Below are positions 1 to 9,750 of a stretch of 27,607 bases of DNA, one piece after another. Origin of the DNA: Candidatus Gastranaerophilales bacterium (lineage in GTDB: Bacteria; Cyanobacteriota; Vampirovibrionia; Gastranaerophilales; Gastranaerophilaceae); the NCBI GenBank assembly GCA_900548405.1, contig UNSJ01000028.1:1-27607 (forward strand). The letters run 5' to 3'. Within the stretch, counting starts at the first letter, position 1. Every line of letters begins with the position of its first letter. The notes beneath the pieces are model-generated. The model was not told the DNA's origin. It made no database searches and saw nothing but the letters and a program-made list of their open reading frames with translations. The translations under genes were made by a program, and so were the position numbers.

Positions 1-49
1 TGTTAGAGCGCCCCCCCCCATGCAATACAAAATTAAAAAATCTTTTCAT
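1..49 (-). CDS. 5' end of a leftward gene with a poly-G leader (partial, runs off the left edge)
   Basis: Only the first 16 codons are visible. The ATG at 49 is preceded by AGGAG eight bases upstream and by a promoter at 83-111. The reading begins MKRFFNFVLH and then runs into nine G residues (minus strand of 11-19). After the tract the bases CGCTCTAACA parallel CACTCTAAAA after the G10 tract of the S74 surface gene at 5242-5251. In the frame homologous to that gene the tract would be followed by G-A-L-T, but with nine Gs the ATG frame reads R-S-N instead. I infer another prepilin-leader protein whose frame depends on tract length. The body of the protein lies outside the window, so its identity is unproven. 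Confidence 0.5.
   Translation of the reverse strand, partial: MKRFFNFVLHGGGRSN
11..19 (-). repeat. G9 homopolymer tract in a gene leader
   Basis: Nine consecutive C on the plus strand (G on the coding strand), ten codons after a Shine-Dalgarno-supported ATG. Its 3' flank matches that of the G10 tract at 5242-5251. Such tracts are prone to slippage in replication and also to sequencing error. Confidence 0.8.
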
Positions 50-3158: not shown

Positions 3159-5279
3159 TTATTTTAATTTGGCTTCTATTTTATCAAGACGCGCTTTTAA
3201 CTCTGCGTTTTCTTTTTCCAATGCAGTTACTCTTGCATCAAGTTCTTTGATTGCATTGATTACAGCATAGAACATGTCTTCCAATCTGATTGTTAAAAAG
3301 CCGTTTTTACCTTTTTTAACAGCATCAGGGAAGATTTTTTGCAGGTCTTGCGCTATTACACCTACGTGAGGAGTTTTTGTTTTATCTTTTTTAAATGTAT
3401 AGTTAAATACTTTTAACTGACGTATTTTATCTAGTCCTGAGGTGTTTTCGCCGCTAATATATTTTAATCGTTTATCGGAAGACCCTGAAGACCAGCCCCA
3501 AGAACTTACGTTGAAGCTTCCTTCCTCTGCATTTTTGTAATATCCATGACCAGATTCACCGTAATATCTCATTAATGATCCGCTATCTCTGCTAACGTTA
3601 AAATATTCCATCTGGTCATCGTCATGCCCGTAAAAAGCAAGTATATCTCTTTCGCCTTTAGACCACAATGTACTGAAAACAAAACCTTTAACAAGTAAGT
3701 TTCCATTTACAACAACTGTACTGTCAATATGGGATTTACCATCTCTATATACACGTTTTTTTGAATCATTATGAACTTCTAATACTGCAACTCCATCATT
3801 AAATTTAGGTTTGCCTCCTATGAATACCCGTTCAACATCATCTTTTGCCCAATCAGAACTTGATGAAGGTCCTGAATTTGCACCTATACAAGTCTTATTA
3901 CTTCCTGTCACACCTGAACAAGCATAAGCCCCTAAGGCTGTATTATTAGAACCTGTTGCATTATTGTTCATGGATAAAGTTCCCACAGCAGTATTAGATG
4001 CGCCGCTGCTTAAACTCATCTGGCTTCTGTATCCTATGGCAATGTTGTTAAATCCTGAACTTGCAGAACCTGCATTTGCCTCACAACCAATTGCTACTGC
4101 ACTTCCGCTTGCGCTTGAATCTTTCCCGATTGCTACTGATGCAGTTGTTGAATTATAAGGTTGTGCATGAGTTTTTGCATTCTCTCCTATTGCTATCGAT
4201 GAACCGTCTGAAGATTCTGAATCAACACCGATAGATATTGATTTATTAGTAGGAGCTTTCGCTGTGTGCCCGATTGCTATACCCTCATTACCGGTAGTAG
4301 CTGCAGAACGACCGATTGCAATACCGTATTCCCCGCCGGAATCTAAGACAGGATTAAGTACGTCACCTTCTCCAACTTTTGCACTGCCTATTGCAATTGA
4401 CCATTGAGGGATTGCATTTGCGCCTCCCAAAGCCAGTGAACCATTACCGATTGCTGCAGAATAAGGTCCTAAAGCAGTTTGAAATGATGCACCGTTAACA
4501 GGATCTTCACCTTTTATACCTGCAACTGCCCAGGGACCGATTGCCATTGACCAGCGATTTCTTGCCTGAGTTGCATAATTTTCATTTATATAACCTGATA
4601 CATCGTGAGTTTGTCCCAAAGCTATTGAAGCAAAACCTGTTGCCTGAGCGTATTCTCCAACAGCAATAGAAAGATATCCTGATGCATTTGAATTCGCACC
4701 TATTGCTGTACTGTAATCACTGGCAGCTTTTGCATTTGAACCTACTGCAGTAGAATATTTTTTAGTTGACTCTGCACTGTTTCCTATTGCTATACTGTTT
4801 GAGCCGTCGGGTTTTGTATCTGTACCAACATTTACAGTATTTGTTCCTATTGCACTGCCGTTACTTACTGAACCCAATAAAATACTATCGTTGTTTAAGC
4901 TCAACAATCCTTTGTTTGCGCCGTCAACCTTAAAAGATATATGGTCTTTATGCGCTCGACTAAATGAATTAATAATTAATTTTACAGGTTCATCTGTATC
5001 CTCGTAATCGTTTTGACCAATCATGGCGGTTTGAGCCGGACCCATACCATAATAGGCATCAGAAAGATTAGCTTCCGAATATCTCCAAGGACTTGATTGG
5101 TCTACCTTACTTCTGGTTGTTACCACAGGCGCCATCGCAGCCAAAACTATGCTCAAGATGAGCATCACTACCATCATCTCTGCTAATGTAAAGCCTTTAT
5201 GCTTACCATTTAAAAACGGCTCAAGGAGTGCTTTTAGAGTGCCCCCCCCCCGCAAGAGTAGCCGCTTAACCCGCCACAT
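3159..5279 (-). CDS. Prepilin-anchored YadA-head-like surface protein with C-terminal S74 chaperone domain
   Basis: The observed open frame gives 706 residues from an ATG at 5279 that has no Shine-Dalgarno. A type-IV-prepilin cleavage/helix segment, G29|FTLAEMMVVMLILSIVLAAM, is near the N-terminus. Residues about 130-500 carry many degenerate 14-residue-like repeats of the form S-IAIG-A-A (SIAIGNSAES, STAIGANSNA, SIAVGEYAQA, SIALG), as in trimeric-adhesin YadA heads. The C-terminus from Ser601 (SDKRLK) is a peptidase S74 intramolecular chaperone as in phage endosialidases; Ser601 and Lys606 match the known Ser-Lys spacing for autocleavage. A coiled coil ends the protein (about 680-706). I infer a trimeric surface fibre held by a pilin-like helix. 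A better start, ATG 5338, is separated from the body by a G10 tract and is out of frame at this length. Confidence 0.85.
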   Translation of the reverse strand: MWRVKRLLLRGGGTLKALLEPFLNGKHKGFTLAEMMVVMLILSIVLAAMAPVVTTRSKVDQSSPWRYSEANLSDAYYGMGPAQTAMIGQNDYEDTDEPVKLIINSFSRAHKDHISFKVDGANKGLLSLNNDSILLGSVSNGSAIGTNTVNVGTDTKPDGSNSIAIGNSAESTKKYSTAVGSNAKAASDYSTAIGANSNASGYLSIAVGEYAQATGFASIALGQTHDVSGYINENYATQARNRWSMAIGPWAVAGIKGEDPVNGASFQTALGPYSAAIGNGSLALGGANAIPQWSIAIGSAKVGEGDVLNPVLDSGGEYGIAIGRSAATTGNEGIAIGHTAKAPTNKSISIGVDSESSDGSSIAIGENAKTHAQPYNSTTASVAIGKDSSASGSAVAIGCEANAGSASSGFNNIAIGYRSQMSLSSGASNTAVGTLSMNNNATGSNNTALGAYACSGVTGSNKTCIGANSGPSSSSDWAKDDVERVFIGGKPKFNDGVAVLEVHNDSKKRVYRDGKSHIDSTVVVNGNLLVKGFVFSTLWSKGERDILAFYGHDDDQMEYFNVSRDSGSLMRYYGESGHGYYKNAEEGSFNVSSWGWSSGSSDKRLKYISGENTSGLDKIRQLKVFNYTFKKDKTKTPHVGVIAQDLQKIFPDAVKKGKNGFLTIRLEDMFYAVINAIKELDARVTALEKENAELKARLDKIEAKLK

Positions 5280-5338
5280 TGGAGCTCTGTCATACTTTCT
5301 CCAACTAACGAAGCTGCTATTTTACTGATTTTGTCCAT
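5234..5338 (-). CDS. Well-supported start and leader of the S74 gene, out of frame in this sequence
   Basis: ATG 5338 has AAGGAG seven bases upstream and a promoter at 5371-5398, unlike the ATG at 5279. It reads MDKISKIAASLVGESMTELQ and on into the G tract. With the ten Gs present it meets TAA at 5236-5234, giving 34 residues. With 8 or 11 Gs it would read G-T-L-K-A-L-L-E-P-F and run into the prepilin helix and the body of the surface protein. With nine Gs it would hit TGA soon after. I infer this is the true start of the gene and that tract length sets on or off. An assembly error of one G would equally restore the frame. Confidence 0.7.
   Translation of the reverse strand: MDKISKIAASLVGESMTELQCGGLSGYSCGGGAL
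5242..5251 (-). repeat. G10 homopolymer tract in the coding leader
   Basis: Ten consecutive C on the plus strand lie between the Shine-Dalgarno-supported ATG (5338) and the prepilin cleavage site of the S74 protein. The gene is in frame with that ATG only when the tract is 2 modulo 3 in length (8 or 11). Confidence 0.9.
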
Positions 5339-5370
5339 ACTTTCACTCCTTGTTTGTGATTTCCATTATT

Positions 5371-5398
5371 ATTATAAACGATTTTTGAATTTTTACAA
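5371..5398 (-). promoter_or_regulatory. Promoter of the S74 surface gene
   Basis: On the minus strand TTGTAA (5393-5398), a 16-bp spacer and a perfect TATAAT (5371-5376) predict a start near 5364. The leader is about 26 nt, just long enough to hold AAGGAG before ATG 5338, which supports that ATG as the intended start. Confidence 0.65.
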
Positions 5399-5497: not shown

Positions 5498-6046
5498 CTA
5501 TGATGATGAGCTTGATTTATATTTGTAGCTCAAAATACTATAAGTATCACTTGTATCAGATGAATCACTGCCATAGAAAGTTGACATATTGCTTGCAGAT
5601 TTCATCCTGAATTCATCCATTTTTTCCTGCTTAGCAGAGTCTACGGTAAACGCTGAGATTTCGGCATCAGTAATTTTTCCGTCGCCGTTAGAATCAATTT
5701 CATCAAAGTGTTCCAATATTTCTGTCATTTTGCTGTCTGAAATTCCTGATGCACCTGATGCATACAATTGTGTCAATTCAGCTTTTGTTAAACCCGTTTT
5801 AGATAATGTATTTGTCATATTAGTCATTTCTTCAGCACTTATAACACCATCATTGTCTTTATCAAGATTTGAAAAGTTTGTTTGAAGGTATGATGCAAAT
5901 GACTGGTTGATTGTAGTTGCTAACTTTGAATTTGTTCTTGCATTAGCCAAATTTTCAAGTGTTAAACCGTCCTCATACTGTGCTGCAATATATGAATATG
6001 TATTAGAAATTCCTGAGTAAATTCCTGAAAGTAAACTGCTTGCCAT
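5498..6046 (-). CDS. EF-hand calcium-binding protein
   Basis: The 182-residue protein has two canonical 12-residue EF-hand loops: residues 62-73 (DKDNDGVISAEE) and 118-129 (DSNGDGKITDAE). Each has acidic residues at positions 1, 3, 5 and 12 and Gly at 6, so both should bind Ca2+. The spacing of about 56 residues makes it an EF-hand pair joined by a helical linker. The N-terminus (MASSLLSGIYSGISNTYSYI) is not a classic signal peptide, and the C-terminus is Ser/Tyr-rich, ending in five serines. AAGGAG lies eight bases before the ATG. It sits just upstream of the pilin-anchored surface protein in the same direction, but with its own terminator. Function is unknown; calcium sensing or buffering is the family-level inference. 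Confidence 0.85.
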   Translation of the reverse strand: MASSLLSGIYSGISNTYSYIAAQYEDGLTLENLANARTNSKLATTINQSFASYLQTNFSNLDKDNDGVISAEEMTNMTNTLSKTGLTKAELTQLYASGASGISDSKMTEILEHFDEIDSNGDGKITDAEISAFTVDSAKQEKMDEFRMKSASNMSTFYGSDSSDTSDTYSILSYKYKSSSSS

Positions 6047-9188: not shown

Positions 9189-9750
9189 GTTTATTTTTCT
9201 TACAGCATTTTTGATATTTTTCGGTTTGCCTTGTTCATCTCAAGTCATTCATGACAGTTTTGCAGAAAATATCTTAAAAAATCAATCCTTTGAAAAACCT
9301 GAAGCTCATTTAAATTACAATTACGAGGGCACTGCAAAAATTCCCATAAGAATGACAATTACAAAAGATATTACCTCAGAAGGCGACTTATATGAGGGTG
9401 AACAAGTAAATTTCAGGGTTGCTGGCGATGTTATCTGTAACGGAAGAATTGTTATTGCAAAAGGCACAATTGTTCCTGCAAGAGTGGAAACTATAATTAC
9501 AAGCGGAATGAACGGAATTCCTGCAAGCATTATCTTTGGCGATTTCAAATTTCCTGACATCGACAGCAATAAAATTGATTATACATACGAACGTTTCGGA
9601 CAAGACAGAAGTTTGTGGGTTTTTCCACTCAAATGGTCACTGACATTTCTGCCTCCGACAGGCTCTTTGACCAATTTTATCAAAGGCGGACATGCAAGAT
9701 TAAAAACAAACAAAATAATTGAAATTTATTATTATCCTAATTGGATTTAA
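9181..9750 (+). CDS. Exported beta-rich protein of unknown function, coupled to the M48-like gene
   Basis: The 189-residue precursor begins with a hydrophobic signal sequence (MNKFIFLTAFLIFFGLPCSS). The Cys is not in a good lipobox, so a soluble or loosely attached exported protein is more likely than a lipoprotein. The body alternates short hydrophobic strands. A segment near 85-105 (VICNGRIVIAKGTIVPARVE) resembles the 'DV...V.IPKGT...G.V' strand pair of periplasmic beta-barrel or assembly proteins, without allowing a family call. It overlaps the M48-like gene by 8 bases and probably works with it in the envelope. Its 3' end overlaps engB tail to tail by 14 bases. Confidence 0.7.
   Translation: MNKFIFLTAFLIFFGLPCSSQVIHDSFAENILKNQSFEKPEAHLNYNYEGTAKIPIRMTITKDITSEGDLYEGEQVNFRVAGDVICNGRIVIAKGTIVPARVETIITSGMNGIPASIIFGDFKFPDIDSNKIDYTYERFGQDRSLWVFPLKWSLTFLPPTGSLTNFIKGGHARLKTNKIIEIYYYPNWI

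Follow-up and report, generated by a model that had tools for sequence, protein, structure and literature searches.

A run of ten Gs on the minus strand of a Candidatus Gastranaerophilales contig stands between a well-marked translation start and a long prepilin-like protein frame, and the start and the protein are in different reading frames. How, then, is the protein made, and is the break peculiar to this gene? The window, by which is meant the whole 27,607-nucleotide stretch that was analysed, had previously been read from its letters alone. That initial annotation proposed that slipped-strand changes in the tract switch the protein on and off, or that slippage by polymerase yields a fraction of full-length protein, with a one-base assembly error as the main alternative.

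Leader, tract and body in the window

A sigma-70-like promoter, TTGTAA-16-TATAAT (5371..5398, minus strand; 10 of 12 consensus letters), is followed on the same strand by the ribosome-binding stretch CAAGGAGTG (5344..5352), whose Shine-Dalgarno part AAGGAGTG at 5351-5344 scores 6 matching letters. Together with ATG 5338 they mark one start, as the initial annotation had it. Upstream of the promoter, a terminator-like hairpin (5447-5428, minus strand) lies 3' of the neighbouring EF-hand gene, suggesting that the tract gene is a separate transcription unit. This neighbour (5498-6046, minus strand) encodes a protein of 182 residues with the EF-hand motifs PF13499 and PF13202. No RNA family reached its gathering score in the window.

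From ATG 5338, a leader ORF of 34 amino acids (5234..5338, minus strand) runs across the G10 tract (5242..5251, minus strand). Its translation, MDKISKIAASLVGESMTELQCGGLSGYSCGGGAL, ends at the TAA stop at 5236-5234, and the body lies in another frame; on both points the earlier reading agrees with the translation. The tract has one G too few to join leader and body. By arithmetic, the two frames coincide at 8 or 11 Gs (the in-frame length is 2 modulo 3), which confirms the lengths proposed. With 29 codons ahead of the tract, the leader is unusually long; related leaders mostly have 6 to 13 (144 of 161). By eye, its 3' part (5252-5279) recurs in another locus, L289 (1514-1551), ahead of a G10 whose far side resembles a C10 leader on the opposite strand, so that a dispersed repeat adjoins tracts there.

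A search for runs of at least seven Gs gave 7 matches in the window, against a mean of 0.31 in shuffled windows, and these resolve into two tracts, 5242-5251 and 11-19. The second tract had not been described before. It belongs to a leader of its own (11..49, minus strand) that starts at ATG 49-47, reads MKRFFNFVLH and then enters a G9 (19-11; C9 on the plus strand), which begins 30 nt downstream of that ATG. The gene is truncated by the contig end 10 bases past the tract, where repeated sequence may have broken the assembly.

The body frame (3159..5279, minus strand) has 706 codons counted from the internal ATG 5279, which lacks a ribosome site. Three Pfam domains were matched on the minus strand: the N_methyl prepilin motif PF07963 at 5133..5204 (body residues 26-49; 34.0 bits, cut-off 21.2), YadA_head repeats PF05658, whose top-scoring stretch is at 4689..4766 (40.5 bits, cut-off 25), and Peptidase_S74, the chaperone of endosialidase, PF13884, at 3315..3479 (58 bits, cut-off 22). 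With N_methyl above its Pfam cut-off, the product is predicted to be type IV prepilin-like, and it is probably located at the surface with an adhesin-like role. Trimeric autotransporters of the YadA class are defined by a C-terminal YadA anchor barrel. The body carries YadA head repeats, but its Pfam matches (E <= 0.001) comprise only Peptidase_S74, YadA_head and N_methyl, without the anchor barrel, and for this reason it was not assigned to that class.

A search for relatives of the body gave 69 loci, of which 56 are titled Gastranaerophilales or Melainabacteria; the other 13 include Fusobacterium sp. CAG:439, a genome grouped in the same order. The adhesin match starts at most 500 bases from the locus start, and hence near a contig end, in 36 of the 69 loci, so assemblies probably break up the family and understate its size. 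Searching viral contigs for relatives gave no match, and the window DNA used as a query matched 80 of 383 genomes, over short partial stretches only.

Tract-led prepilin genes in Gastranaerophilales

Long G-runs are common in part of this order. Runs of at least 8 G occur in 27 of 28 related genomes, and the 11 genomes that were fully counted hold 964 of them, 816 being exactly 10 long, 61 exactly 11 and 48 exactly 9; these length counts cover whole genomes rather than chosen stretches. In a wider draw of the order, an exact G10 was present at least once in 42 of 60 genomes. Many genomes of that draw have few or none, so the abundance is limited to some lineages.

The tracts tend to sit ahead of prepilin genes. 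In 798,734 bases from two genomes, 18 of 26 tracts lie directly ahead of a prepilin frame on the same strand; the remaining ones include two of the C-type and one at a zorA-zorB-like junction. Counted from the side of the genes, a tract is present at 14 of 25 counted prepilin frames on one 319-kb contig and at 4 of 9 in 400 kb of another genome. Judged by its relatives, the window gene is one of many tract-led prepilin loci in the lineage. A tract in a different setting is the G10 at 2560-2569 of L001, which lies between a gene ending in DDVDDLF and a ZorB-like gene, and is intergenic rather than part of a leader. Its flanks resemble those of tracts in L038 and L052, and a PADLOC scan of L001 and L038 matched the neighbour in both to ZorB (E 2e-54).

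Do other loci share the missing base? Among 161 prepilin tracts preceded by an ATG with a ribosome site, 127 are one base short, 27 are in frame and seven are in the third frame, where the 27 are not a random estimate, since the 20-kb stretches were picked around listed tracts, many of them G9 (in genome G028) or G11 (in G012 and others). The division is 104, 24 and 4 for G-type loci (n=132) and 23, 3 and 3 for C-type loci (n=29). These counts, like those of 122 loci, omit loci from G9- or G11-specific searches (L140-L199), which are included wherever 143, 149 or 153 loci are counted. When the length-specific loci are added, the corresponding numbers are 109, 31 and 13 for G (n=153) and 24, 9 and 12 for C (n=45). 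The full set comprises 273 distinct G-tracts (the same tracts being also seen as C), with 153 G-type and 45 C-type prepilin loci; the unclassed tracts lacked a frame of at least 120 codons, an ATG with a ribosome site within 130 bases, or a prepilin motif. The loci are related by descent and the counts are not independent. When ancestry was reduced to combinations of genome, base and frame class, 38 of 51 were one short, and one-short loci form the plurality in 16 of 22 sources (21 genomes and the window).

The frame beyond the tract is nearly always open. All tracts 9 to 11 bases long that are followed by a prepilin helix, whatever its frame, were examined for stops between tract and helix, and none occurs at 148 of 149 loci with a G-tract and 44 of 46 with a C-tract. 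Among stretches of at least 25 codons, 55 of 56 (G) and 20 of 22 (C) are open; the frequency of stops in the other frames predicts 1.4 and 0.7. In the G-type loci (n=143), a stop falls within three codons of the tract in 131 cases in the one-short frame and in 17 in the third frame; on distinct post-tract sequences the numbers are 93 of 105 against 17. The C-type signal is weak (15 versus 9 of 45 within three codons; medians 4 and 8).

The rule is one of frame and not of absolute length. Loci differ in the phase of the ATG-to-tract spacing, and the body frame shifts accordingly. In G028 the modal run is nine (of 72 runs with 8 or more Gs, 48 are exactly G9), and ten bases would bring leader and body into frame at 30 of 31 G-type loci and at all three C-tracts; the set point therefore tracks the genome's own modal length. 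In G015, the G-type loci with a long frame are one short in nine cases and in frame in five, and three of these five are G10 loci.

Phase-variable homopolymers are recognised by a long tract in the 5' part of the gene that determines the reading frame by its length, by related loci that differ in tract length, some of them in frame, and by mixed lengths and a high switching rate within one population. The first two are found here. In-frame G11 versions exist at L014, L019 and L054 and at three places in G001, some G10 adhesins are in frame, and L049 has a G11 yet is out of frame. The leader MKETFINRNV is in frame in P0134, with another body, and one short in L051. In the protein database, several clusters hold in-frame leaders carrying four glycines. 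There are also relatives without a tract whose leader and body share one frame (L009, P0154, P0159, P0160), and P0171, in frame as well, has an interrupted tract when compared with P0142. These versions, with the open frames described above, uphold the earlier statement that the tract sets the reading frame. Tract length differs in 4 of 9 pairs with at least 80% identical flanks (4 self-duplicates removed), and nine pairs are too few to separate mechanisms. Among the matches listed (120 of 2087 and 120 of 636), 11 clusters carry the leader type of the window gene, and each of them is out of frame; this speaks against frequent switching at this locus or is due to chance. In one further tract-led locus, L044, a promoter-like TTGCAA-16-TATGAT (9521-9548; 9 of 12 letters) lies past the tract and immediately precedes an ATG close to the prepilin helix; there were 4 matches of this type, against 0.9 in shuffles.

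Strand, pairing and the joining of frames

Whether a tract is written in G or in C depends on the strand. Of 181 tracts, 160 have their G-run on the strand whose GC skew is positive; after removal of duplicates and addition of later loci the count is 158 of 182. For the prepilin genes themselves, 86 of the G-type are co-oriented with the positive-skew strand and 3 opposite, compared with 1 and 12 of the C-type; the skew count omits loci shorter than 9 kb, some of its loci overlap, and 23 genes at near-zero skew were excluded. A control comparison with the majority coding strand gave agreement of the G-run strand in 113 cases and disagreement in 68. On contig 1 of G015, tract polarity reverses between 259,565 and 297,874, where the noisy GC skew changes sign; because dnaA is on another contig of this genome, the flip is named an origin-like skew change only. 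Around the window gene, the plus-strand GC skew is negative, consistent with a G-run on the minus strand. The choice of G or C is thus set by the direction of the gene relative to the skewed, presumably leading, strand, and this points to a process at the DNA level. G-type and C-type leaders are different sequences.

A second feature that had not been described is CACTCCTTG (5222..5230, minus strand), a complement of the ribosome site just past the tract, which forms nine pairs with it in the predicted mRNA fold. The whole 5' fold is ordinary (z -1.17), so only the local pairing is claimed. In 29 loci the duplex energy between post-tract sequence and own ribosome site was -9.98, compared with -9.04 after permutation (p 0.0023). 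In 120 loci the values were -9.59 and -8.64, with none of 5000 permutations reaching the own value; permuting within genomes gave -9.16 (p 0.0017), and a control stretch gave -5.7. It may be suggested from this modelling that the pairing damps initiation in the OFF state. A DNA inversion between AAGGAGTG and CACTCCTT was also considered and dropped, as the G-type and C-type leaders differ and mRNA pairing is the simpler reading.

Taken together, the G10 tract is probably a phase-variation switch that is OFF by default and acts through replication slippage. Translation would begin at the leader ATG and run through the short leader into the tract. With a tract of the modal length it would be out of phase by one base, stop a few codons past the tract and yield no pilin. 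Slippage adding one base during replication would join leader and body into a prepilin-anchored, adhesin-like protein, and single pilins would be turned on in a minority of cells. We infer that in living populations the tract changes length at a rate sufficient to switch the gene. For the related pilin genes, the pattern suggests a large set of surface proteins that can be switched at random and are mostly off. Several points count against such a default-OFF switch. The mutS gene is above cut-off in 57 of 60 genomes of the order, including the tract-rich ones of that draw (which left out G015 and G028), and since mismatch repair would slow slippage, switching may be slow. The same result led us to reject loss of mismatch repair as the cause of the tracts. 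Tract lengths, 85% of which are the same, vary less than free wandering would suggest, the C-tract rule is weaker (24 of 45 one short), and L049 and the in-frame G10 adhesins do not follow the pattern.

The strictness of the rule could instead reflect programmed recoding, in which the tract is kept one base short and RNA polymerase, by adding a base, or the ribosome, by a -1 shift, realigns the frames to give a fixed full-length fraction while the DNA stays unchanged. The constancy of length (816 of 964 runs exactly G10), the loss of mostly the same base (127 of 161), the early stop of the unshifted frame (131 of 143) and the movement of the set point with the modal length in G028 all accord with this. 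However, C-tracts mostly obey the rule (23 of 29), despite a different run in the mRNA and different codons, in-frame G11 and tract-less in-frame versions are tolerated, and an RNA-level mechanism gives no account of a G or C choice that tracks the G-skewed strand. Recoding at the window gene is accordingly rated as rather unlikely. A version on the scale of the genome, in which dozens to more than 100 G10 or C10 tracts per genome are one short, pilin-like proteins arise by realignment tuned by ribosome-site pairing, and DNA slippage is an added switch, seems about equally doubtful. The one-short rule is mostly present in both G- and C-runs, either of which could slip, and is weaker for C once the length-specific loci are added. 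Between the two forms of slippage in the initial annotation, DNA-level phase variation is favoured, because the base follows the orientation of the gene to the G-skewed strand and the rule mostly holds for both bases; polymerase slippage is the less probable form.

The other explanations are far less probable. A sequencing or assembly error, by which a true in-frame tract lost one base in consensus calling, was the alternative given most weight before. Tract lengths in databases can indeed be unreliable, as in parts of the Bifidobacterium breve study used here (PMC9187656). However, the one-short state recurs in 127 of 161 loci from many genomes and assemblies and in all 11 clusters of the window's leader type among the matches listed, which makes a lone error very unlikely; G028 pairs a modal 9 with an in-frame 10 where other genomes pair 10 with 11, in-frame G11 is called in the same assemblies, and the early stop of the one-short frame is independent of the called length. 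Translation of the body from ATG 5279 whatever the tract length is scarcely more probable. This ATG is in the body frame, related database proteins begin there (MWRVKRL...), and 37 of the 127 one-short loci have some in-frame ATG ahead of the helix. Its ribosome-site score is 0, however, as the initial annotation had noted, against 6 for the leader ATG; promoter and ribosome site belong to the leader frame, and the next in-frame ATGs are already within the prepilin helix. A body-frame ATG with a ribosome site precedes the helix in only 7 of the 127 loci (17 if GTG and TTG are counted), and as a general mode internal starting was rejected. That the gene is a decaying pseudogene is most improbable: its consensus frames are disrupted, but the 700-codon body is open with all three domains above cut-off, a database cluster 99% identical to it has 41 members and the same out-of-frame N-terminus, and many genes are disrupted at the identical site.

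Comparison with known switches

If default-OFF switching is true, an uncultured and apparently harmless gut lineage would hold a very large set of homopolymer-switched genes, which in the stretches examined are mostly for pilin-like surface proteins. The one-short rule, common to G- and C-tracts and to two modal lengths, would be a testable sign of OFF as a set point, and the strand-locked choice of G or C a natural experiment on replication slippage. In databases, proteins of the tract-led prepilin family appear to be given a wrong start or to be cut short at the tract, and counts of them in gut metagenomes may therefore be off. In a literature search, the titles, the abstract beginnings and passages of PMC8863827, PMC4040986 and PMC5877343 contained nothing on tract switching in Gastranaerophilales.

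Homopolymer control of surface genes is familiar elsewhere. In the portions of the reports consulted (PMC6321876, PMC8355987, PMC5084427), the poly-G and poly-C phasomes of Campylobacter and Neisseria likewise comprise many homopolymer or simple-repeat contingency loci, many of them acting on surface structures. Those bacteria are pathogens with mixed target genes, whereas the targets here are mainly prepilins with a mostly uniform one-short leader design. Inactivation of Listeria monocytogenes inlA by a 5' homopolymer, as far as the cited text goes (PMC2831843), also involves a tract near the 5' end where a frameshift leaves a very short product. It concerns poly-A/T in a single model gene, in contrast to the poly-G/C and many loci of the present case.

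A closer counterpart is found in the gut commensal Bifidobacterium breve, where, in the sections of Penno et al. (2022, PMC9187656) drawn on here, the G-tracts of the pilus loci bbr_0113 and bbr_1889 are OFF by default and the frames are joined by replication slippage. At one locus, the annotated G11 accounted for 37% of molecules and G12 for 59%. As in the window, a well-initiated short leader ORF is followed by a G-tract and a pilin ORF in another frame without a start of its own. The systems differ in that B. breve has two loci in that strain, for sortase-dependent pili with a Sec signal, while many type IV prepilin-like genes per genome are involved here; the productive change is mainly loss of one base in B. 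breve and would be gain of one here; and the use of G or C by strand and the ribosome-site complement past the tract set the present loci apart. On the best reading of these parts of the literature, the B. breve pilus tracts are the known system closest in mechanism, which in Gastranaerophilales would operate on a larger scale.
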